Source of the DNA: Serinibacter salmoneus
Lineage (GTDB): Bacteria > Actinomycetota > Actinomycetes > Actinomycetales > Beutenbergiaceae
Reading direction: 5' to 3'
Assembly (NCBI RefSeq): GCF_002563925.1
Contig: NZ_PDJD01000001.1
Span: 682,001 to 746,000, forward strand
Length of the DNA stretch: 64,000 nt
In this document: positions 7,586 through 16,909 of the stretch, in pieces
How positions within the stretch are numbered: position 1 is the stretch's first letter
Layout: every line of letters starts with the position of its first letter
Translations under genes and position numbers: made by a program
Notes under the pieces: generated by a model
What the model saw: only the letters and a program-made list of their open reading frames with translations
Database searches by the model: none
What the model was told of the DNA's origin: nothing

Positions 7586-7870
7586 CCTAGCGGGGCCGGA
7601 GCCATACACTTTCTCCGCACGGGATTGGTGCACCACCTCATTCTCGGCGCCGCGAGTTGCCGGCCCCAAATTCCACGACACCTGCTCCTGGCGTGCCTCA
7701 TCGTTTCTAACGGTGCCAAGGGATCTGGTGCGGAAGTTCTCTCCCGAGTTGCGACGCTTCTGGGGCTGAGGCAACATAGCCACACTCTTCGCGTTTCTAC
7801 AGTGCAGTGGAGGCTCGCGCTGAGGTGAGGGATTGTCCCCCGCTTTCCCTCGACACGTCATGCCGTAGCC
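7586..7870. other. Intergenic stretch without a recognisable gene
   Basis: About 285 bases between xthA and the duplicated tail upstream of the first TasA-like gene. No open frame with coding character was found on either strand. It probably holds the xthA terminator and the promoter of the following gene, but no clear -35/-10 pair or strong hairpin could be named. Confidence 0.5.
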
Positions 7871-7940
7871 ACTGGCCCCGGTGGCGTCTACCCCCTGATC
7901 TGACACCGCGGTGGTGGCAGGAAGTACGTAGGAGATTCAC
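7871..7940 (+). repeat. Upstream copy of a 70-base direct repeat, with remnant 3' end of a surface-protein gene
   Basis: These 70 bases align without gaps to 9601-9670 (seven mismatches) and end, in both places, right at the ATG of a TasA-like gene. At 9601 the sequence encodes the last residues and stop of the Pro-Glu repeat protein ([10 protein letters not shown]). Here the same frame reads TGPGGVYPLI and then stop at 7901-7903, but the frame is closed a short way upstream, so it is only a leftover tail. It records duplication of a block that included the end of that gene. The AGGAG binding site of the next gene is part of the repeat. Confidence 0.75.
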
Positions 7941-8585
7941 ATGTCAAAGAAGACGACTGGCATCATTGCGGGCGCCGCGGGTGCGGCTCTGCTGCTCGCT
8001 GGTGGGACGTTCGCGCTCTGGGAGGGCGAGGCGTTTGTGTCCAACGACGACCTGGTTGCCGGGAACCTCGAGATCGAGTTCGCGGACAACACCTGGTGGG
8101 ATGTGTCGGATGACCGCACGGACGACCCGCACCAGATCATGCTGGAGAGTTTCCGTATCATCCCGGGCGATGACATCCGTGGCATCGCAGAGTTCAAGGC
8201 TGCCCTCGAGGGCGACAACATGGTCGCCGGTCTGAACTACGTGCTCTCGGGCTTCGAGCCGCCGTTCTTCTCCAAGGTCGATGGTCTGACCACACTGATC
8301 AGCTTCGAGTACTTCGACGGTACAGACTGGGTGTTGCTCGACGACAACGTGGCCGGCCTCGGGGCTGGCCCGTTCTACTTCGCCTCGGAGGACAACTCGA
8401 ACAACATGAACGTCACGCTGCCGACCCTGCCCACGGAGCTCCCCGCCGACCCGAATGTCCGCCTGGTCATCGACATCAAGGCTGACGACTCGGGCGTCTT
8501 CACCGGTGTCGCTCACGTCGCTGACTACGAGGTCTCGCTCACGCAGACTCGCGACGCCGGTGTGGGTGGCGGCTACATCCCCTGA
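7941..8585 (+). CDS. Alternate-signal exported protein, TasA/camelysin-like, copy 1
   Basis: A 214-residue secreted protein with the alternate (SipW-dependent) signal peptide: lysines at residues 3-4, a hydrophobic run, and GGTFALW at 21-27 followed by an acidic start of the mature part. The rest is beta-rich and acidic and ends in TQTRDAGVGGGYIP. The family (RER_14450-like alternate signal proteins, related in layout to TasA) forms or decorates surface fibres in Bacillus; function here is inferred. A good AGGAG lies seven bases before the ATG. The first 289 bases are identical to the copy at 9671. The later part is a patchwork of identical and different segments. A matching SipW-type peptidase is encoded at 10395. 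Confidence 0.85.
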   Translation: MSKKTTGIIAGAAGAALLLAGGTFALWEGEAFVSNDDLVAGNLEIEFADNTWWDVSDDRTDDPHQIMLESFRIIPGDDIRGIAEFKAALEGDNMVAGLNYVLSGFEPPFFSKVDGLTTLISFEYFDGTDWVLLDDNVAGLGAGPFYFASEDNSNNMNVTLPTLPTELPADPNVRLVIDIKADDSGVFTGVAHVADYEVSLTQTRDAGVGGGYIP

Positions 8586-8886
8586 TCCCTCAACAGGCCC
8601 GCAGGCTTCGGCCGACGAGCACGTAATGGCGTGCAGTCTTGCTGGAGGGAATCCTGACACTGCGCTCTCACAAGCGCTCCAAATGCGCTCGGAGTGCCAG
8701 GTCTTACGTCAACAGTGCGAAGTGCTGGCCAGGTGTGCAACCGAAGGGGCGAGAAAAAGTCCCACGAGTTGTGTTCGGCTCCGGTCTGATGCACTCTAGT
8801 GGGAGTTCTCGCGACCGACAGTGAAGTCGGGGCCTGTGAACAGACTCGGCAGTGATGCTGTCACCGTCCCTTGAGGAGTCAATGAT
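8586..8886. other. Intergenic stretch upstream of the Pro-Glu repeat protein gene
   Basis: About 300 bases with no convincing gene. The one structured element is an imperfect inverted repeat, GCGAGAAAAAGTCCCAC (8749-8765) against GTGGGAGTTCTCGC (8799-8812), which could be an operator or a hairpin. A GAGGAG ribosome site (8873-8878) serves the next gene. No consensus promoter was recognised. Confidence 0.4.
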
Positions 8887-9633
8887 ATGGGCGCGTGTGG
8901 GGAAAGTACCCCGCTTGCGGCAGGAAAGTGGCGTCCGGCGCCGCTTTCTGCCCTCGCGGGTGCGATTCTTCTGGTCCTGGGCGTGGCGTCTGGTGCAGGT
9001 GCCAGTGTGGATACGGATGGCACTTCCGCACTCGTACCGCAGGTTGACCCCGAGTCGGCCCCTGTGCCCGAGGTGCCGTCGGAGTCGGAGCCTGTCCCGG
9101 AGCCGGAGCCGGAGCCGGAGCCTGTCCCGGAGCCCGAGCCCGTCCCGGAGCCGGAGCCTGTCCCGGAGCCCGAGCCCGAGCCCGTCCCGGAGCCGGAGCC
9201 GGAGCCTGTCCCGGAGCCGGAGCCGGAGCCCGTCCCGGAGCCGGAGCCGGAGCCTGTCCCGGAGCCGGAGCCGGAGCCGGAGCCCGAGCCGGAGCCAGAG
9301 CCAGAGCCAGAGCCGGCTCCCGCTCGCAACTCGGAAGGCGCCTCGTCGCTTGCACTCGAGACCCGCATGTGGGAGCTCGGCGAGGTCCCGGCCACGGGAG
9401 ATGCGCTGCCCGATGCCCCTGAATTGGCTACGGACAGTGTGGTGCCTGCCGGCACCCCCGTCGTCTGGAGTTACACGGTCACCAATACCGGGCAGACCGC
9501 CGTGACCGACGTGATCATCACCGATGACCACGCCCCGAGCGGCACCGTCTGTGAGCTCGAGGAGCTCGCAGCCGGCGCCTCGATCACCTGCTTCCGGGGC
9601 ACCGGCCCCGGTGGCATCCACCCCCTGATCTGA
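8887..9633 (+). CDS. Secreted Pro-Glu repeat surface protein with C-terminal DUF11-like domain
   Basis: A 248-residue protein. Residues 1-41 look like an ordinary Sec signal peptide ending near SGAGA. Residues about 59-145 are an uninterrupted run of Pro-Glu and Pro-Val-Pro-Glu units, a stiff, highly acidic stalk. After it, [23 protein letters not shown] is the core of a DUF11/CARDB-type beta-sandwich, and the chain stops soon after in [14 protein letters not shown] without a membrane anchor or LPxTG. Such stalks usually hold a head away from the cell wall. It has GAGGAG eight bases before ATG 8887. It lies between the two TasA-like genes, and its last codons are duplicated before copy 1. Repeat number may vary by slippage. 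Role is inferred. Confidence 0.8.
9061..9320 (+). repeat. Coding repeat of Pro-Glu / Pro-Val codons
   Basis: Degenerate tandem units such as GAGCCTGTCCCGGAGCCG, 6 to 18 bases in period, encode PEPVPEP-type sequence. Both Pro codons (CCG/CCT/CCC) and the number of PE pairs between PV pairs vary, so the array has drifted but remains in frame throughout. It explains the long spurious antisense frames in this area. Confidence 0.9.
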
Positions 9634-9670
9634 CACCGCAGTGGTGGCAGGACGTATGAAGGAGATTCAC

Positions 9671-10321
9671 ATGTCAAAGAAGACGACTGGCATCATTGCG
9701 GGCGCCGCGGGTGCGGCTCTGCTGCTCGCTGGTGGGACGTTCGCGCTCTGGGAGGGCGAGGCGTTTGTGTCCAACGACGACCTGGTTGCCGGGAACCTCG
9801 AGATCGAGTTCGCGGACAACACCTGGTGGGATGTGTCGGATGACCGCACGGACGACCCGCACCAGATCATGCTGGAGAGTTTCCGTATCATCCCGGGCGA
9901 TGACATCCGTGGCATCGCAGAGTTCAAGGCTGCCCTCGAGGGCGACAACATGGTCGCCGCTCTGGCGTACGCAGTCGAGGGCTACGCGGTAGGCGACCCC
10001 ACGCCCACCCCGATCGACGGTCTGAAGCTGCGCTTCGACTTCGAGTACTTCGACGGCACCGACTGGGTGTTGCTCGACGACAACGGGTTCGGCCTCGCGG
10101 CTGGCCCGTTCTACTTCGCCTCGGAGGACAACTCGAACAACACTAACGTCACGCTGCCGACCCTGCCCACGGAGCTCCCCACTGACCCGAACATCCGCGT
10201 CACCCTGGACATCGAGGCGGAGGACTCGGGTGAGTTCACCACGGAGCTGCAGTTGGACCAGTTGAAGATCACCCTGACTCAGACCCGCGACGCCGGCGTG
10301 GGTGGCGGCTACATCCCCTGA
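9671..10321 (+). CDS. Alternate-signal exported protein, TasA/camelysin-like, copy 2
   Basis: A 216-residue twin of the protein at 7941, with the same alternate signal peptide (GGTFALW at 21-27) and the same TQTRDAGVGGGYIP end. Residues 1-96 are identical to copy 1. Residues about 97-115 and 175-205 differ strongly, while the segments around FEYFDGTDWVLLDD and FYFASEDNSNN are nearly identical again. AAGGAG lies seven bases before ATG 9671. The frame also opens at 9641 but that extension is the repeated leader. Its stop codon lies in the first of two TGACCGGTCA palindromes, followed by the signal peptidase gene. Likely a fibre subunit variant, by analogy with TasA; this is inference. Confidence 0.87.
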   Translation: MSKKTTGIIAGAAGAALLLAGGTFALWEGEAFVSNDDLVAGNLEIEFADNTWWDVSDDRTDDPHQIMLESFRIIPGDDIRGIAEFKAALEGDNMVAALAYAVEGYAVGDPTPTPIDGLKLRFDFEYFDGTDWVLLDDNGFGLAAGPFYFASEDNSNNTNVTLPTLPTELPTDPNIRVTLDIEAEDSGEFTTELQLDQLKITLTQTRDAGVGGGYIP

Positions 10322-10344
10322 CCGGTCAACCCACTGACCGGTCA
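10319..10344. promoter_or_regulatory. Two tandem TGACCGGTCA palindromes
   Basis: The perfect 10-base palindrome TGACCGGTCA occurs at 10319-10328 and 10335-10344, 16 bases apart, the first including the stop codon of the upstream gene. Flanking AACC also repeats. Two identical palindromes about 1.5 turns apart just before the signal peptidase gene suggest a binding site, though a simple short duplication is also possible. Confidence 0.4.
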
Positions 10345-10394
10345 ACCAGCCGGGCGAGAACCGTCACGCACACCCAAGAAGAAGGGAGCTCTCG

Positions 10395-11081
10395 ATGAAC
10401 GCACCACAGCCCGATGTCGTGCCGCCATCGGGAGCCGCTCCCACGGACTCCAGCCGGCCCATGGCGGAACACACCCCGGCACAGGTGCGGGCGCGCCGCA
10501 GCACAGCGCGGCGCGTCCTCACCATCGTCACGACAACCCTTGCGACCGCCCTGCTGATCCTGGCAGTGGCGGTCGCCGTGGTACCGCGGGTGATGGGCGG
10601 CGCCGCGCTCACGGTGCTCTCCGGATCCATGGAACCCGCGATCTCCGTGGGAGACATGGTGGTGAGTGTGCCGCAGGAACGCTACGAGCTCGATGACGTG
10701 GTCACATTCCAGCCTGTCTCGGGCGACCCCACTCTGGTGACCCATCGGGTGGTCGGGGTCACCATCGGCCCTGGGGGCCCGTCGTACCTGACTCGCGGCG
10801 ACGCCAATGGCGCAGACGACGATCCGATCGTGCAGGAGCAGGTGATGGGGAAGGTCATCTACACGATCCCCTACGTCGGCTACCTCTCCCAGGCCGTGGG
10901 GGAGCACCGCTCCACCGTGGTGACCGTGATCGCCGTGGCGCTGCTCGGCTACGGCGCCGTGGCGCTGCTCGTGCCCGCTCGCTACCTCTCTCGCCGATCT
11001 CAACCCACCTCTGATTCAGCTCGACGTCCCTCGCGCTCCACCCCTCGCGTGACACGTCACCGCAAAGGACCTGACGCATGA
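10395..11081 (+). CDS. sipW: Signal peptidase I, SipW/ER type
   Basis: A 228-residue membrane protease. After a polar Pro-rich N-terminus there is one transmembrane segment (about 41-66), then the catalytic Ser78 in LSGSMEP, followed by the S26B-type His117 in LVTHRVVG instead of the Lys found in bacterial LepB, and the conserved RGDANGADDDP region. A second hydrophobic segment lies near residues 178-200, then a basic tail. This is the SipW class, which in Bacillus cleaves TasA and TapA. Here four alternate-signal proteins surround it (7941, 9671, 11078, 11656), a strong functional link. AAGGGAG lies before ATG 10395. The stop overlaps the next start (ATGA), so it is co-translated with the following gene. 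Confidence 0.92.
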   Translation: MNAPQPDVVPPSGAAPTDSSRPMAEHTPAQVRARRSTARRVLTIVTTTLATALLILAVAVAVVPRVMGGAALTVLSGSMEPAISVGDMVVSVPQERYELDDVVTFQPVSGDPTLVTHRVVGVTIGPGGPSYLTRGDANGADDDPIVQEQVMGKVIYTIPYVGYLSQAVGEHRSTVVTVIAVALLGYGAVALLVPARYLSRRSQPTSDSARRPSRSTPRVTRHRKGPDA

Positions 11082-11659
11082 CCGATCACGATGCCGTGGC
11101 GGCCCCCCGACGGCGCAACTGGGCTCTGCCAGCGGCGCTGGCCGGCGCCCTGCTCCTCGGGCTCTCCACGGGTGGTACCTACGCCACGTTGTGGCAGCGG
11201 GAGGCCGCCGTCTCCAACACCCACCTGCAGGCGGGCGCCCTGGGCGTCGTCGCCACCGGCACCCCGGTGTGGCGCGACGGCCTCGGCGTGATCGACCCGG
11301 CCACCTACCCGGTGCGCCCCGGCGACACGCTGACGGTGGAGCAGGCCTACCAGATCACGCGAGAGGGGACCAACCTCAACGTGGAACCGACACTCACCCT
11401 CGGTGAACCCCTCCCCGCCGGGGTCACAGCCACCTACACCCTCTCCGTCGACGCCGGCGCCCCCACCGAGCCCACCGCGGTCGGTTCGCCGAGCGACATC
11501 CTGTCCTCGGGAATCGGCGCAGACGTGCTGCCGGTCACCGCGGTGGTCACCCTGACCATCGGTGGCACCGCTGCCGCCGGCGGAAGCGCGGCCGTGGAGA
11601 TCCCGGAGATCGCGCTGGAAGTCCAGCAGGTGCGTGCGGGAGCGGGGTACACCTCATGA
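11078..11659 (+). CDS. Alternate-signal exported protein, minor subunit candidate
   Basis: A 193-residue secreted protein. It has a basic start (PRRRNW), a hydrophobic segment and GGTYATLWQREA at about residues 32-43, the SipW-type cleavage context. The mature part is beta-rich (Thr/Val/Gly) and ends VQQVRAGAGYTS, echoing the GVGGGYIP end of the two TasA-like proteins. It differs from those in sequence, so it may be a minor or cap subunit. Both ends overlap neighbours by four bases (ATGA), placing it firmly in the sipW operon. No close family name beyond the alternate-signal class is claimed. Confidence 0.8.
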   Translation: MTDHDAVAAPRRRNWALPAALAGALLLGLSTGGTYATLWQREAAVSNTHLQAGALGVVATGTPVWRDGLGVIDPATYPVRPGDTLTVEQAYQITREGTNLNVEPTLTLGEPLPAGVTATYTLSVDAGAPTEPTAVGSPSDILSSGIGADVLPVTAVVTLTIGGTAAAGGSAAVEIPEIALEVQQVRAGAGYTS

Positions 11660-12378
11660 CCCGCCGCAGCACGGCAACCGCGGTGACCGCCGCGACGTTC
11701 GCGGTCGGGACCATCGTGGGCCTGGGTGGCACCACGTTCGCGCTCTGGAGCGACCGCGCGGTCGCCCCCGGAGCGACCTTCACCTGGGCGCAGGAGAGCT
11801 TTGCGGCAGGCATCGCAGGGGAGTCGCTCACCTTCGCGCCGAGCGACGCCGACCCGAGGACACGTTCGGTCCCGCAGCCGGGAGGGGAGGTCACAGTCAC
11901 CCTGGACGGCCCAAGCCTGGCGAACGACGTGCTCGACCACGGCGCGGCCGTGCGCGTGCTGCAGACCTCCTCGCTCAGCGAGGGCAGCATGGGCTTGCGC
12001 TACACGGCATTCCTGGGCGAGATCGAACCGGACTCGGTGCTCGGTCAAGCGCAGGTAAGCCTCTTCGCCACCGAGGGCCCGGACCAGTGCCACACGGAGA
12101 CGCCTGTACCCTCCCCGAATCCCCTCACCTCCACCCCGGTGTCACCTGCCCCGGGTGACCGCGCCCCGGTTGTGGAGTATTGGTGCCTGCAGGCCGTGGC
12201 GGAGCGACCGCAGGAGCAGACGCAGACCGGCAGCCCCGGCGTGCTCGCGACCGATGAGACGGGCAACCCGGTTGAGGTGACTGCGGACCCGTGGAATCTG
12301 GATGTGGTGGCTTCGCCCCACGATCAGGGAGACGCCGTGGTCACCTTCTCCTACACGACCTTCCGATCGGGGACCTGA
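11656..12378 (+). CDS. Alternate-signal exported protein, larger accessory subunit
   Basis: A 240-residue secreted protein with basic start, hydrophobic run and GGTTFALWSDRA (about residues 24-35), again the SipW-type signal. The mature region is acidic and contains a Pro/Ser/Thr-rich loop (PVPSPNPLTSTPVSPAPGD) flanked by two cysteines (DQCHTET and EYWCLQA) that could form a disulfide outside the cell. Start overlaps the previous stop (ATGA), and the next gene begins two bases after its stop. Function unknown. Position suggests a part of the same surface structure. Confidence 0.75.
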   Translation: MTRRSTATAVTAATFAVGTIVGLGGTTFALWSDRAVAPGATFTWAQESFAAGIAGESLTFAPSDADPRTRSVPQPGGEVTVTLDGPSLANDVLDHGAAVRVLQTSSLSEGSMGLRYTAFLGEIEPDSVLGQAQVSLFATEGPDQCHTETPVPSPNPLTSTPVSPAPGDRAPVVEYWCLQAVAERPQEQTQTGSPGVLATDETGNPVEVTADPWNLDVVASPHDQGDAVVTFSYTTFRSGT

Positions 12379-12380
12379 CG

Positions 12381-13124
12381 ATGGCAGACCGCACCCACGC
12401 TCCAAGCGGACCCACACGGCGCGCCCGAGTGCGGCGCGCCGGGGCTGTCCTCGCCGTTGCACTCCTGCACGGCGCAGGGGTTCCGGCCGTTGCCACCACC
12501 TACCAGGATGCCATCGAACTCGGATTCGACCCCGGTTCCCTCGCCCCCAGTACGAGCGAGAACTATTTCGGCCTCCCGGTGGTCGTGCCTGGTGACTCAG
12601 CCAGCCGGACCTTGACCGTGCGCAACGCCGGTCCCGGCGACGGCACGCTCACTGTCTGGCTCGTGGACACTCACATCACGGAGCCCGGCAACCCGTTCTA
12701 CTCCGACCTGATGCTGGAGTGGGACGGCGGCGAGGCCAGCTTCGAGGTGCTCGCCGCAGGCGATCGGGAAATCATGAGCGTGCCGTTGCCGCAGGGTGCG
12801 ACCAGACAGGTTCCGTTGGCCTACGACTTTCCCTCGGCAGCGACGTCGGGCAACCAGGCGGACAACGATCACGAGTTACGCGCCGGCACGACTGTCTACC
12901 TCGAGTTGACGGGGGCTACCCCCACGACCGGGCCGACCCCCACGACCGGGCCGACAGCGGGGCCAGGCGGTGGTGCCACCACGGCGCCGCCTGGAGCAGC
13001 GGGGGGTGGCGGTCTGCCCACCACGGGCGCGGACCTCGCATGGACCGCGGGCCTGGCGCTGGCGCTCCTGGCCGGGGGCGGTGCGCTGCTCTGGTCACGA
13101 GCACGGCGCGGCGACACCCAGTAG
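12381..13124 (+). CDS. LPTTG cell-wall anchored surface protein
   Basis: A 247-residue protein with a Sec signal peptide (basic RRARVRRAG, hydrophobic, ending near AVA-TTY), a beta-sandwich-like domain (about 40-170, with SRTLTVRNAGPGDGTLTVWL), a Thr/Pro/Gly linker (about 178-210), LPTTG at 212-216, a membrane segment and an RARR tail. This is a classic sortase substrate. As the last gene of the alternate-signal operon it could tether the fibre to peptidoglycan, a role met elsewhere by TapA-like or pilin-base proteins. The ATG at 12381 is two bases past the previous stop, and the longer frame from 12291 overlaps coding sequence and is rejected. No sortase gene is in the window. Confidence 0.88.
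   Translation: MADRTHAPSGPTRRARVRRAGAVLAVALLHGAGVPAVATTYQDAIELGFDPGSLAPSTSENYFGLPVVVPGDSASRTLTVRNAGPGDGTLTVWLVDTHITEPGNPFYSDLMLEWDGGEASFEVLAAGDREIMSVPLPQGATRQVPLAYDFPSAATSGNQADNDHELRAGTTVYLELTGATPTTGPTPTTGPTAGPGGGATTAPPGAAGGGGLPTTGADLAWTAGLALALLAGGGALLWSRARRGDTQ
12918..12953 (+). repeat. 18-base direct repeat in the linker of the LPTTG protein
   Basis: The unit ACCCCCACGACCGGGCCG occurs twice in tandem without mismatch and encodes TPTTGP twice. It lengthens the wall-spanning linker by six residues per unit and could vary between strains. Confidence 0.85.
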
Positions 13125-13173: not shown

Positions 13174-14397
13174 CTACAGCCCACCACGCAGCGCCGCGAC
13201 CGGTTCCAGCGACGCCGCCTTCAGCGCGGGGTAGGCGCCGGCGACCAGCCCGATCACGCCGCCGAGCAGGGCGGCGCCGAGCGCGAGCGGCAGGTCGATG
13301 ATCGGCGTCCATGCCTGCGCGGCGCTGACCGCGACCACCACACCCACGCCGAGCGCGGCCCCGATGATCCCTCCCAAGAGCCCGACCACCACCGACTCGA
13401 TGATGAACTGGGCCGCCACCTGCCCACGTGTGGCACCGAGCGCCCGCCGCAGCCCGATCTCCCCCACGCGCTCCATCACCGAGAGCAGCGTCACGTTCGC
13501 GATGCCCAGTCCGCCGACGATCAGCGCCACCGCGCCCAACGCGAGGAAGATGACGTTGATGTCGCCGCGCACGTCCCGCTGCAGTTCCCCGCCGGCCGGC
13601 GGCGCCTGCACGTCGATGTTCTCGGGGGAGTTCGGCGCGAGCGCGATCGGCACCTGCTCGGACACCACGTCCCCGGCGCCCACCGCGATCCGCATCTGCA
13701 CCTCACCCGGAGCAGCCAGGGCGAAGTCCACCCGGGCCGTGCCCATCGGCATGATGACGGCGTCCAGGAGGTCACGCCGTCGCACCGCATCGCCGAGGAT
13801 CCCGATCACCGTGTAGGAGTCCTCGCCGATGAAGATCGAGGGTTGGGAGTCCACCCGGTACACCCCGAGCCGCTCCGCGGCACCCGGCCCGAGCACCACC
13901 ACGCGGTCGCCGCGCGACTCGTGGCCCGCGTCGAACATCCGCCCCGTCGCGACCTCGGCGCGAATCGCCGCCAACAGACCGGGGGAGGCCGCGGAGACGG
14001 TGGGGGTCACGGTGCGCGAGGCGGTCGGGTCCGCGATCGGCACCGCGGAGATCCGCGCATCACCGACCGGCACGTCCGCCACCAGCGCCGCCGCCTCGAT
14101 GCCGTTCAGGCGCATGACCCGCTCGTGCGCGTCCCACGGCAACGCGGTGCGCGCTCGTGTCTCACCCGAGATCGTGTTGACGGTGCCCGCCTGTGCCACG
14201 GCCTGGGTGGCGGCGACGGCGTCGAACTGCCGCGCGATCTGGCCCGCCCCGGTCTGGGCCATTCCGAGCGTGACCACCACGGCCGCGATCCCCAGGACGG
14301 TGCCCAGGATCGTCAGCACGAGACGTCCCGGCCGTGCCCCGATGCCGTGAGAGGCCTCCACGAACAGGTCCTGCAGGCCGGCGAGCCGCCCGCTCAC
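13174..14397 (-). CDS. MacB/FtsX-type ABC transporter permease
   Basis: A 407-residue permease of the MacB type: an N-terminal membrane helix (about 27-48), a large external domain (MacB-PCD, about 50-280), and three C-terminal helices. The cytoplasmic loop RVGEIGLRRALGATRGQVAAQF between helices 2 and 3 is diagnostic for FtsX/LolE/MacB. Start is a GTG that overlaps the stop of the ATPase gene (GTGA). With the ATPase and the adaptor it should form a mechanotransmission exporter driving peptides, lipoproteins or small molecules across the envelope. It is the last gene of a four-gene leftward operon. Confidence 0.92.
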   Translation of the reverse strand: MSGRLAGLQDLFVEASHGIGARPGRLVLTILGTVLGIAAVVVTLGMAQTGAGQIARQFDAVAATQAVAQAGTVNTISGETRARTALPWDAHERVMRLNGIEAAALVADVPVGDARISAVPIADPTASRTVTPTVSAASPGLLAAIRAEVATGRMFDAGHESRGDRVVVLGPGAAERLGVYRVDSQPSIFIGEDSYTVIGILGDAVRRRDLLDAVIMPMGTARVDFALAAPGEVQMRIAVGAGDVVSEQVPIALAPNSPENIDVQAPPAGGELQRDVRGDINVIFLALGAVALIVGGLGIANVTLLSVMERVGEIGLRRALGATRGQVAAQFIIESVVVGLLGGIIGAALGVGVVVAVSAAQAWTPIIDLPLALGAALLGGVIGLVAGAYPALKAASLEPVAALRGGL

Positions 14398-15134
14398 CGC
14401 AGCACCTCCAGCCGGCCGTCGGTGATGCGCACCTGGCGCTGCGCACGCGCCGCCACCTGCGGGTCGTGCGTGATCACGGCGAGGGTCAGTCCGTCACCGT
14501 GCAACTCGTCGAACAGGTCCAACACCTCACCGGAGGTCGTGGAATCCAGGTTCCCCGTCGGCTCGTCGGCGAGCAACAACGCAGGTGACGTCGCGACGGC
14601 GCGCGCCACCGCCACCCGTTGACGCTCACCACCGGAGAGCGTGGTGGGGCGAAAGCCCAGGCGGTTGGCCAGGTGCACCCGTTCCAGGGCGGCGATCGCC
14701 CGCCCGGCCCGCTCGGCGCGCGGAATGCCGGCGTACATCGTGGCGAGCATCACGTTCTCCAGCACCGTGCGGTGCGGCAGGAGGTGGAACGCCTGGAACA
14801 CGAACCCGATCCGACCCGCGCGCAGCGCGGTGCGGCGGCGCTCGCTGACCTCGTGGCTGGGTTCGCCGTCCAGGAAGTACTCCCCGGCGCTCGGCCGGTC
14901 CAGCAGCCCGAGCAGGTTCAGCAGCGTCGACTTACCCGACCCCGAGGGTCCCACGATGGAGAGGTAGTCCCCGGGCTCCACGAGCAGGTCGGTGGGATGC
15001 AGCGCGACGACGCTCGGCGGGCCGGGGAAGGTGCGCGTCACCCCGCGCATCTCGATCACGGGCGGGTCGAGGACGATGACGTCCTCGGCCTGTGCACCCA
15101 CCTCGGCCTGCTGGCGCGCGGGCGTGGCGCTCAC
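14394..15134 (-). CDS. MacB/LolD-type ABC transporter ATP-binding protein
   Basis: A 246-residue ATPase with Walker A GPSGSGKST, Q-loop FVFQAFHLLPHRTVLENV, signature LSGGERQRVAVARA, Walker B LLLADEPTGNLD and H-loop VITHD. The LADEPTGNLD form and length are those of LolD/MacB/FtsE ATPases. The start is GTG at 15134, overlapping the adaptor stop. A leading 25 residues before VIEMRGVTRTF are extra and low-complexity. It pairs with the permease downstream. Confidence 0.93.
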   Translation of the reverse strand: MSATPARQQAEVGAQAEDVIVLDPPVIEMRGVTRTFPGPPSVVALHPTDLLVEPGDYLSIVGPSGSGKSTLLNLLGLLDRPSAGEYFLDGEPSHEVSERRRTALRAGRIGFVFQAFHLLPHRTVLENVMLATMYAGIPRAERAGRAIAALERVHLANRLGFRPTTLSGGERQRVAVARAVATSPALLLADEPTGNLDSTTSGEVLDLFDELHGDGLTLAVITHDPQVAARAQRQVRITDGRLEVLR

Positions 15135-16909
15135 CGGCCGCTCCCGTCGGCGTCCTGCACGCCGTCGTCCTCCTGCGATGAGTCGCCGTCGTCACCGGAC
15201 CCGCCCACGCCGACCACCACGAGGTCGCCCTCCTGCAGTGGTGAGACGCTGGAGGCGACCTCCACGTACCCGTCCGCCGCCAGGCCCGTGGTGACCTCCA
15301 CGAGTTCGGGGGCCTGCGCGCCGTCGCGCATCACCTCGATCCGGCTCTCCCCACCGGGGCCGGCCGTGAGCGCCGCGACCGGCACCGTCAGCACCTCACC
15401 GGCGGTGGAGGAGACCGGGATGGTGACGCGCACGTTCGAGCCCGCCAACTGGCTGCGCTGATCCTCGGTGAGGTCGTCGGGATGGAGCACCACCGTCGGC
15501 CCCGTGGGCACCGATGACCCGCCGCCGAATCCGTCGTCGAACTCCTCGAACCCGTCTCCCGAGTCCGAGCCCGAACCCGACTCCTGCGGCAGGATGCCCG
15601 AACCGTCCCGGCTGAGCTGGACCACGGTGGCGGGCAGTTCCAGGTCGCCGGTGCTGAGCGTGGCGGTGGCGCCCTCCTGGATGAGGTCGAAGTCGGACTC
15701 CGAGACGCTCGCGACGATCTGCAGCGTCACCCCGGACACGCGCAGCACCTCACCGGAGACGGCCGAGCCGCGGGAGACCGCGACCTCGTCCACCCGCCGC
15801 GGCAGATCAGCGAGGTAGGCGACCTCGCCGGCGGGAAGCGGGGTGAGGACCCCGAGGCGGGCCTCCTCCAGTGCGGAGCGTGCCTCGGCCAGCGCCGTCG
15901 CGGCGGCGTCGCGCATCTCCTGCTGCGCGGAGACGTCGGGTGCGGCCAGCGCCTCGTCCCGCGCCGCGACGGCGATCCGCACCGCGTCCTCCAGGTCCGC
16001 CACCCGGGGGCAGGACCGCTCCAGGGTGAGGGTCTGGCCGGTCTCCGGGTCGGTGCTCTGCTCGGCGGGCGCAGCCCAGCAGGCGCGGGCCTCGTCGAGA
16101 TCGCGTTGCGCGGAGTTCACGGCGCCCTGCAACGAGAGCCGTTCGGAGTCCGCCGGGCCCGACTGCGCCTGGCGCAGGTCGCTCTCCGCTGCGGCAAGGG
16201 ACTGCTCCGCAGCCGTGACCGATTCCTGGGCCATCGCGAGTTCGTCACGCGCTGCCTCGTCCGCCTCCGGCGCGGGGTACCCGGCGCGGGTGAACAACTC
16301 CGCCACGGCGGCAGCCGTCGCGGCGTCGTAGGTGCCGGAGTTCCCGGCGTCCAGGTCGAGGGAGCCCAGGGCCTCCTGCAGCTGTGTCACGTCGGGGCCG
16401 GAGACCCCGGCACGCAGGCTGCGGTAGACGGGCAGTTCGCCGGGTAACGCGATGACCGGGCGACCGGTGACCTCCAGCAGCACGCTCCCGGGCTCCACGG
16501 TGTCCCCGACCTGCGGCACGGCGCCCGTGACGACGGCCGGTCCGCCGAGGTCGGCCGTCTCCACCGTCACCGAGACCGCACCGTCGTAGAGTGCGTCACC
16601 GCGCACCACCACGTCGCTGGAGAGTTCCTGCCGCTCCACGGCGATCGTGATCGGTCCGGCCTCGGGCGGCGCGCTCTCCGCCGCGATCTGAGCGGGGGAC
16701 TTCACCAACCGTCCCGCGAGCAACCCGAGGGCGAGGCAGAGGACGGCGATGATCGCCATCACCCAGACCGTCCGGTTCGAACGGCCCGCTCGGGCCACGA
16801 GGGCGCTCCCGCCGCCGGTAGCGGGCGTGCCCACGGTGCCCGGCGTGACGTGGGTGAGGTCGTGGTGCTCCTGGGGTACGGGATCCTCGCGCCGGCGGCG
16901 CCGGATCAC
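15131..16909 (-). CDS. Membrane-fusion-like adaptor with peptidoglycan-binding domain
   Basis: A 592-residue HlyD/MacA-like adaptor of a Gram-positive MacAB-type exporter. A cytoplasmic N-terminus is followed by one membrane helix (about 47-70), a first barrel/lipoyl-like part (VVVRGDALYDGAVSVTVE), then a peptidoglycan-binding type 1 domain (LRAGVSGPDVTQLQEALGSL, about 165-215) inserted before a long Glu/Ala-rich coiled coil (215-365) with two cysteines (ARACWAA and ERSCPRV), and C-terminal beta barrels. The Ser/Gly/Asp-rich stretch near residue 450 is a flexible loop. Starts at GTG 16909 overlapping the lipoprotein stop. The wall-binding insert fits an adaptor that spans thick peptidoglycan. 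Confidence 0.88.
   Translation of the reverse strand: MIRRRRREDPVPQEHHDLTHVTPGTVGTPATGGGSALVARAGRSNRTVWVMAIIAVLCLALGLLAGRLVKSPAQIAAESAPPEAGPITIAVERQELSSDVVVRGDALYDGAVSVTVETADLGGPAVVTGAVPQVGDTVEPGSVLLEVTGRPVIALPGELPVYRSLRAGVSGPDVTQLQEALGSLDLDAGNSGTYDAATAAAVAELFTRAGYPAPEADEAARDELAMAQESVTAAEQSLAAAESDLRQAQSGPADSERLSLQGAVNSAQRDLDEARACWAAPAEQSTDPETGQTLTLERSCPRVADLEDAVRIAVAARDEALAAPDVSAQQEMRDAAATALAEARSALEEARLGVLTPLPAGEVAYLADLPRRVDEVAVSRGSAVSGEVLRVSGVTLQIVASVSESDFDLIQEGATATLSTGDLELPATVVQLSRDGSGILPQESGSGSDSGDGFEEFDDGFGGGSSVPTGPTVVLHPDDLTEDQRSQLAGSNVRVTIPVSSTAGEVLTVPVAALTAGPGGESRIEVMRDGAQAPELVEVTTGLAADGYVEVASSVSPLQEGDLVVVGVGGSGDDGDSSQEDDGVQDADGSGR

Follow-up and report, generated by a model that had tools for sequence, protein, structure and literature searches.

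A run of seven genes, gA–gG, all on the + strand at 7941–13124 of a 64,000-nucleotide (nt) window of Serinibacter salmoneus (contig NZ_PDJD01000001.1, 682,001–746,000; feature positions are window coordinates), is probably one instance of an operon, conserved in actinobacteria, for a TasA-type surface fibre anchored to the cell wall. The components of this operon are here termed TIP, T1, SipW, T2, T3 and BASE, and the order TIP–T1–SipW–T2–T3–BASE is exact in 25 of 85 distinct SipW loci, the window included (the canonical loci); 28 of the 85 show the order of the five genes from T1 to BASE. The 85 loci comprise 78 named loci (without L035, taken to be the same contig as L022 because their lengths, 37,623 bases, and their scores are equal), six from the family of the host and the window itself. 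A scan with the SipW alignment supplied the named loci (the best 80 of 121 confirmed, 79 of them distinct, ranked by similarity to the SipW alignment) and, given this ranking, the fraction of 25 in 85 should not be read as a natural frequency. The initial annotation of this stretch had suggested a survey of gene order, and its outcome indicates more than chance and no local oddity. The seven genes and the features within them are as follows.

7930..8229, +: 300-nt tract identical to 9660–9959, within a longer duplicated segment
7941..8585, +: gA, T1 copy 1, a TasA-like exported protein with a SipW-type signal, 214 amino acids (aa) (TIGR04089; 81% identity to gC; T1 hidden Markov model (HMM) E 2e-76)
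8887..9633, +: gB, a shortened TIP with an ordinary signal peptide (by eye), Pro-Glu repeats and a C-terminal incomplete DUF11/DUF7507 domain
9343..9621, +: residues 153–245 of gB, its C-terminal, incomplete Ig-like (DUF11) domain (Pfam, TIP-end HMM)
9671..10321, +: gC, T1 copy 2, a TasA-like shaft candidate, 216 aa (TIGR04089, AlphaFold2 (AF2), Foldseek)
10395..11081, +: gD, a SipW-type (S26B) signal peptidase with Ser78/His117 (TIGR02228)
11078..11659, +: gE, T2, a SipW-type exported protein and T1 paralogue (TIGR04089 below cut-off; hhalign)
11656..12378, +: gF, T3, a SipW-type exported protein (TIGR04088 below cut-off; T3 HMM E 7e-101, with gF in the seed)
12381..13124, +: gG, BASE, with an ordinary signal peptide (by eye), a predicted TasA-like domain, a linker and an LPTTG sorting signal (AF2, VIA)
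13014..13028, +: LPTTG sorting motif of BASE (gG) (translation, motif scan)

Start codons, and hence protein lengths, were assigned mechanically, and visual inspection was used to identify the signal peptides of TIP and BASE. Six component HMMs were built from family members, with the window and L020–L023 as seeds, whose scores are high by construction. The parts listed in the initial annotation (four SipW-type proteins, one SipW peptidase, a Pro-Glu protein and an LPTTG protein) are all present. Its statement that the genes are mostly joined by ATGA overlaps does not hold: such 4-nt overlaps occur at only two of the six junctions, gD/gE and gE/gF, and the remaining gaps are 301 nt (gA/gB), 37 nt (gB/gC), 73 nt (gC/gD) and 2 nt (gF/gG).

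The full operon is found in four relatives within the family (L020–L023), and a T1 relative is encoded in six of 24 family genomes (the window's own included) and in 52 of 297 sampled genomes of the order. Twelve named genera are represented among the canonical loci: Ruania, Enteractinococcus, Oceanitalea, Georgenia, Microbacterium, Frigoribacterium, Brevibacterium, Leucobacter, Yaniella, Nesterenkonia, Paeniglutamicibacter and Cellulomonas; they belong to the Micrococcales. Many of the remaining loci, including those of Propionibacteriaceae and Bifidobacteriaceae metagenome-assembled genomes (MAGs), show a rotated order, T2, often T3, then T1, SipW and BASE, and in others SipW was found alone or beside one or two of its partners, in many cases where the contig is short. 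Retaining loci truncated at a contig end reduces these counts. The combination of SipW processing with sortase anchoring, which had been proposed as a distinctive design, is not special to this genome and recurs in many genera.

The peptidase gD passes TIGR02228 (81.7 bits, cut-off 51.85), is the sole match to this model at E ≤ 0.1 in the 3.27-Mb genome and has Ser78 and His117 invariant across all five aligned orthologues, in agreement with its original description as an S26B/SipW-type enzyme; it does not pass the Bacillus SipW equivalog NF046067 (83 bits, cut-off 190). The four proteins first described as bearing alternate signals do so: the motif reads GGTFALW in gA and gC, GGTYATLW in gE and GGTTFALW in gF. 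Both gA (66.6 bits) and gC (72.5 bits) are above the cut-off of 60 for TIGR04089 (exp_by_SipW_III, NCBIfam), gE is just below it (56.2 bits), and gF is below the cut-off of 19 for TIGR04088 (16.9 bits). Across the 25 canonical loci the SipW-type motif occurs in 27 of 27 T1, 23 of 26 T2 and 23 of 26 T3 genes, and in none of the TIP (0 of 25), BASE (0 of 26) or SipW (0 of 26) genes; this count omits TIP matches longer than 1500 aa and scores the window T2 as a miss owing to its variant GGTYATLW, and the patterns used for both the SipW motif and the sorting signals are our own. Judged from these sequences, the export signal would sort the parts, being of the SipW type on T1, T2 and T3 and of the ordinary type on TIP and BASE. 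All sequences in the T1, T2 and T3 alignments, which were trimmed at the motif, have a Trp close to the mature N-terminus, and this residue may reflect recognition by SipW.

The fold of T1 was predicted with AF2 for mature gC from a 54-sequence alignment (mean pLDDT 80.6, pTM 0.77). The model is all beta, with residues 1–8 at a pLDDT below 50; such low confidence is expected for a free donor strand, and the T1 N-terminus is a possible donor strand. Among 350,542 PDB chains, Foldseek ranked the TasA fibre first (8aur, E 1.3e-3, prob 0.96, TMq 0.35) and the archaeal bundling pilus second (7ueg, E 1.2e-2, prob 0.85, TMq 0.33). Both are described as donor-strand filaments (PMC9674648). For BASE (a 140-residue AF2 model from 37 sequences, pLDDT 88.4), VIA placed the TasA monomers 5of2 and 5of1 at ranks 2 and 3 (Z 7.6 and 7.4, 125–130 residues, root-mean-square deviation 3.0–3.1), the two longest alignments in its list, and Foldseek retrieved the archaeal bundling pilus at rank 48 (prob 0.94). 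The link to TasA gains strength because T1 and BASE, which show no detectable relation by profile, both point to TasA, each alone being weak. T1 (gC) is thus predicted to have a TasA-like fold, with modest scores, and BASE is modelled as a TasA-like domain followed by a sorting signal. The comparison with TasA structures that had been suggested at the outset, carried out for T1 and BASE, therefore retrieves TasA in both cases with modest scores; the wall-tethered fibre with a TasA-like shaft that had been proposed finds agreement in the predicted fold of gC and in the sorting signal and TasA-like model of gG, to the extent that these scores allow.

The alignment of BASE with the TasA monomer covers the whole domain, model residue 1–2 falling on TasA residue 38–39. 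Residues 28–38 form the donor strand in Bacillus TasA (PMC9674648). BASE appears to be without a donor segment, because the alignment starts at TasA residue 38–39 with at most one model residue before it, with the caveat that the donor may be unresolved in the TasA crystal structures as well. T2 is a paralogue of T1 (hhalign, 99.9%). T3 was considered as a T1 relative and rejected, its similarity to T1 in profile comparison being confined to 23 N-terminal columns (13%); two of 25 T3 members match DUF7507 (best E 0.027).

The C-terminus of gG consists of LPTTG, a hydrophobic stretch and a basic tail, as expected of the LPTTG-anchored protein noted initially, and scores just under the cut-offs of the Pfam and NCBIfam anchor models. 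A sorting signal of the LxxTG or MxxTG type is present in 22 of 26 canonical BASE genes (nine LP/MP, six LA and seven other). In the non-canonical loci 24 of 42 BASE genes (the duplicate L035 included) carry one under the same pattern, which is slightly looser in that it also permits H, V or I in first position, three of the 24 being HAPTG, HPHTG and VAPTG. Within the window operon gG alone has such a signal, and none was found in gA, gB, gC, gE or gF. Three sortase matches above the Pfam cut-off are present in the genome, all outside the operon; two adjoin genes ending in LPFTG or LPLTG, and the third, with no such neighbour seen within 3.4 kb, looks like a housekeeping type, which we take to be class E. 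In L081, L090, L093, L095, L096 and L099–L102, from Microbacterium, Cellulomonas and Cellulosimicrobium relatives, the end of BASE has a membrane stretch and, after it, a Cys-rich tail resembling a zinc ribbon (CxxC..CxxC) in place of the plain sorting tail.

In the other canonical loci TIP is encoded upstream of T1 and has 536–968 aa. Of these 24 TIPs nine were scanned with Pfam, with vWA matches (E ≤ 0.05) in eight of the nine and SpaA-type matches in six. In seven of the nine the DUF7507 match ends at profile position 77–79 of 105, 1–4 residues before the end of the protein; it ends at 67 with 15 residues left in L021 and at 51 with 43 residues left in L045, and in gB it spans 13–70 of 105 with 13 residues left. 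The assignment of gB as a TIP follows from the TIP HMM (E 5e-14) and the TIP-end HMM (E 1e-26, with gB in the training set). The training set of the latter consisted of the C-terminal 95 residues of the 25 canonical TIPs, whose 0–3 leftover residues arise by construction, and the independent evidence on the TIP end consists of the Pfam matches and of the proteins on which this HMM was not trained (the duplicate L035 omitted), in which 28 of 29 matches end 0–19 residues from the protein end and one is internal. Because DUF7507 stops early, and because DUF11 is Ig-like, the TIP end resembles an Ig domain minus its last strand, a donor-strand acceptor design. A giant LPPTG protein of L027, in which DUF7507 spans 1–97 of 105, provides a fuller-domain control, although a weak one since DUF7927 matches it better. 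Truncation by the local duplication described below was considered for the end of gB and rejected, since the protein ends at the same point in relatives that lack the duplication.

No vWA match was found in gB, where a Pro-Glu spacer takes its place; therefore the window TIP may be a non-adhesive cap, or its gene may be in decay. The initial description of gB as a Pro-Glu stalk protein is accordingly replaced by that of a shortened TIP that ends in an incomplete DUF11 domain. Giant LPPTG-anchored proteins of 1855–1976 aa, which share part of the TIP profile, are encoded upstream of TIP in Georgenia and Oceanitalea (L027:852-6419, L028:623-6301, L029:791-6409 and L031:450-6380), and in L020 the TIP and T1 genes are in frame.

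From the computed features (gene order, signal motifs, the predicted folds of T1 and BASE, the incompleteness of the TIP domain and the sorting signals) we infer a scheme of cleavage sites, polymerisation, anchoring, polarity, donor-strand insertion, contacts among the T proteins, BASE and TIP, and a function in adhesion or biofilm formation. SipW (gD) would cleave the alternate signals of T1 (gA and gC), T2 (gE) and T3 (gF), and the Leu-Trp N-termini so exposed would serve as donor strands, as the TasA N-terminus does in Bacillus. T1 and T2 would be shaft subunits, each with a donor strand and an acceptor groove. BASE (gG), which would have no donor, would tether the fibre to the wall through a housekeeping sortase, and TIP (gB and its larger relatives), likewise donor-less, would cap a fibre end by accepting a donor strand. 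In most of the relatives examined TIP would thereby present a vWA/SpaA adhesin, and in the window no more than a Pro-Glu spacer.

Several observations weigh against this scheme. TIP and BASE both look acceptor-only, and two such proteins cannot both fit one simple fibre with one free donor end; TIP and BASE may belong to separate fibres, T3 (or T2) may act as an adaptor or as a terminator like TapA, or BASE may be attached in another way. The fold comparisons include no Foldseek E below 1e-3, TMq is 0.33–0.47 for the TasA and bundling-pilus rows, and VIA Z stays below 8. For T1, VIA gives archaeal cannulae as its top rows (Z 7.8 and 7.6) and TasA only at rank 46 (Z 5.3), no better than unrelated sandwiches. 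For BASE, its first rank is the human p24 GOLD domain (Z 7.8, 92 residues), and Foldseek ranks CUB domains above TasA (rank 7, prob 0.99, TMq 0.47). The T1, T3 and BASE profiles match no TasA chain in the PDB: T1 retrieves only fluorescent proteins up to E 10 (best E 0.053), and T3 and BASE retrieve nothing up to E 5. BASE compared with T1 by profile reaches only 0.5%. The camelysin model PF12389 (Peptidase_M73, cut-off 22.5 bits) is not passed by gA (18.9), gC (20.1) or gE (12 bits), and it has no match in the genome at E ≤ 0.001. Sorting signals are absent from four of 26 canonical BASE genes (L031, which is cut by a contig end; L026 and L030, with no membrane stretch; and L037, with a membrane stretch and no TG motif) and from 18 of 42 non-canonical ones. 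The vWA match is above cut-off in only three of the nine TIPs scanned and is absent in L045 and in gB.

These points bear differently on the alternatives. The SipW substrates might form no polymer and remain separate surface monomers or small complexes, as in a wall-decorating adhesin complex with TIP and BASE; the modest fold scores and the restriction of the T3–T1 similarity to the N-terminus are consistent with this. We nevertheless hold it to be unlikely, since the models of T1 and BASE each bring up TasA as well as the bundling pilus, T1-type genes have multiplied (L057 has nine), and the relatives TasA, CalY and BsaA, which come with SipW, form filaments (PMC9674648, PMC13082335, PMC7395162). 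Alternatively, a fibre resembling those of BsaA and TasA might form as an unanchored biofilm matrix, and the sorting signal on BASE would be incidental to it. TasA-CalY-CapP and BsaA assemble without a sortase (PMC13082335, PMC7395162), and the BASE genes without a signal, together with the lack of a sortase within the window operon, would suit such a matrix; against it stand the sorting signal in 22 of 26 canonical BASE genes, the TasA-like predicted fold of BASE and the three sortases of the genome, which make it a still less likely explanation.

The locus would be a conventional sortase-built pilus only if its accessory subunits happened to use SipW. The vWA and SpaA-type domains of TIP resemble those of sortase-pilus tip proteins; in G006 (L021:12202-15270) genes which we take to encode a sortase and an LPLTG pilin-like protein adjoin the operon directly upstream of TIP; and a loose pattern flags a sorting-like motif in T2 or T3 frames of L042, L049 and L052 as well as in the giant Georgenia proteins. 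In the window, the shaft candidates gA, gC, gE and gF carry no sorting signals, that of gG being the only one, and the sortases lie outside the operon, an arrangement that differs from a sortase-polymerised pilus and makes this origin highly improbable. The reading with the slightest chance is that T1 acts as a camelysin-type metalloprotease (Peptidase_M73): the PF12389 matches of gA and gC that suggest it are weak, below cut-off and limited to the signal region and the start of the protein (residues 4–60). The anchored TasA-type fibre is the reading that we prefer.

The genes gA and gC share an identical 300-nt tract, made up of 11 nt upstream and 289 nt from the ATG through codon 96, and the longer duplicated segment around it starts near 7870 and, in the second copy, within the final codons of gB. 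Beyond the tract, the other 118 codons that align differ at 41 non-synonymous and 11 synonymous positions (dN 0.27, dS 0.34). With synonymous changes at this rate, the chance of a first half left untouched would be 4e-7, and the identity of the first half beside the divergence of the second therefore fits gene conversion of the N-terminal half; the sequences suggest that such conversion between these tandem shaft genes was recent. Positive selection on the variable half was considered and is not supported (dN 0.27 against dS 0.34). Two T1-type genes occur only in the window and in L046 among the 25 canonical loci. The two TasA-like variants first proposed to form the shaft are a local duplication. 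L046 (825-12799; Cellulomonas sp. KH9) contains two six-gene operons in tandem. A Propionibacteriaceae MAG (L057:1174-11560) has nine T1-type genes around one SipW, eight in a row and one after SipW, the twelve most similar pairs being 36–52% identical.

Taken further, these features might define a class of Gram-positive pili, namely donor-strand fibres without chaperones in which the SipW substrates are donors, the partners with ordinary signals (a wall-anchored TasA-like BASE and a FimH-like TIP with an incomplete DUF11 domain that a donor strand would complete) are acceptor-only ends, and conversion between the two T1 genes of the window strain keeps the N-terminal half, used in assembly, identical while the other half varies; we advance this wider view tentatively, as a conjecture that may well prove wrong.

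Downstream of the operon and convergent to it, at 13174–16909 on the − strand, lies what we take to be a MacAB-like ABC transporter set (permease, ATPase and adaptor-like protein).

The TasA-type fibre is established in Bacillus, with a structurally related pilus in archaea, and a capped, sortase-anchored version would extend it to another large phylum as a little-known kind of bacterial surface fibre with its own wall anchor and adhesive cap. TIGR04089, of which gA and gC are members above cut-off, is a name for signal-bearing proteins only; if our reading is correct, proteins now named only for an 'alternate-type signal peptide' would gain a function, and the operon would make it easy to test whether the purpose of SipW is to generate donor strands. 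Family scans of T3, BASE and TIP members as whole proteins, in which cut-offs are not given for all members, brought up no dedicated family, only generic domain, repeat, anchor and low-complexity models and one TIGR04090 match. No description of the actinobacterial operon was found in the literature searched, subscription papers and preprints lying outside that search. The parts are of known kinds, and what appears new relative to that literature is the combination of a TasA-like shaft, an LPxTG-type TasA-like base and a vWA cap with an incomplete Ig domain across many actinobacterial genera.

Among known systems, chaperone–usher pili (FimH/FimG type) similarly have a tip protein whose N-terminal part is an adhesin and whose C-terminal Ig domain is incomplete, an analogy that we infer for TIP; unlike them, the present operon has a Gram-positive host and genes for neither chaperone nor usher. 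With the SipW–BsaA system of Clostridium perfringens it would share SipW-dependent export of a polymerising protein (BsaA there, a conditional property here), and one of 37 BASE members matches the BsaA family TIGR04090 (E 4.8e-4). BASE carries a sorting signal, whereas for BsaA no LPXTG-like sequence is predicted and polymerisation is described as proceeding without the neighbouring sortase gene srtB (PMC7395162). The TasA-CalY-CapP system of B. cereus likewise has several TasA-like subunits near sipW and a non-TasA helper, but its fibres are described as sortase-independent and its CapP as chaperone-like and of the DUF4047 type (PMC13082335). The tapA–sipW–tasA system of B. subtilis differs in that the present operon has six genes, an LPxTG-type TasA-like BASE and a TIP with vWA and an incomplete DUF11 domain, and none of its genes was matched to TapA, which is reported to have a complete Ig fold and to donate its N-terminus, whereas TIP looks like an acceptor (PMC10151520). 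The two systems resemble each other in the SipW-type peptidase encoded beside its likely substrates, in the TasA-like fold predicted for T1 and BASE and in a possible N-terminal donor strand.

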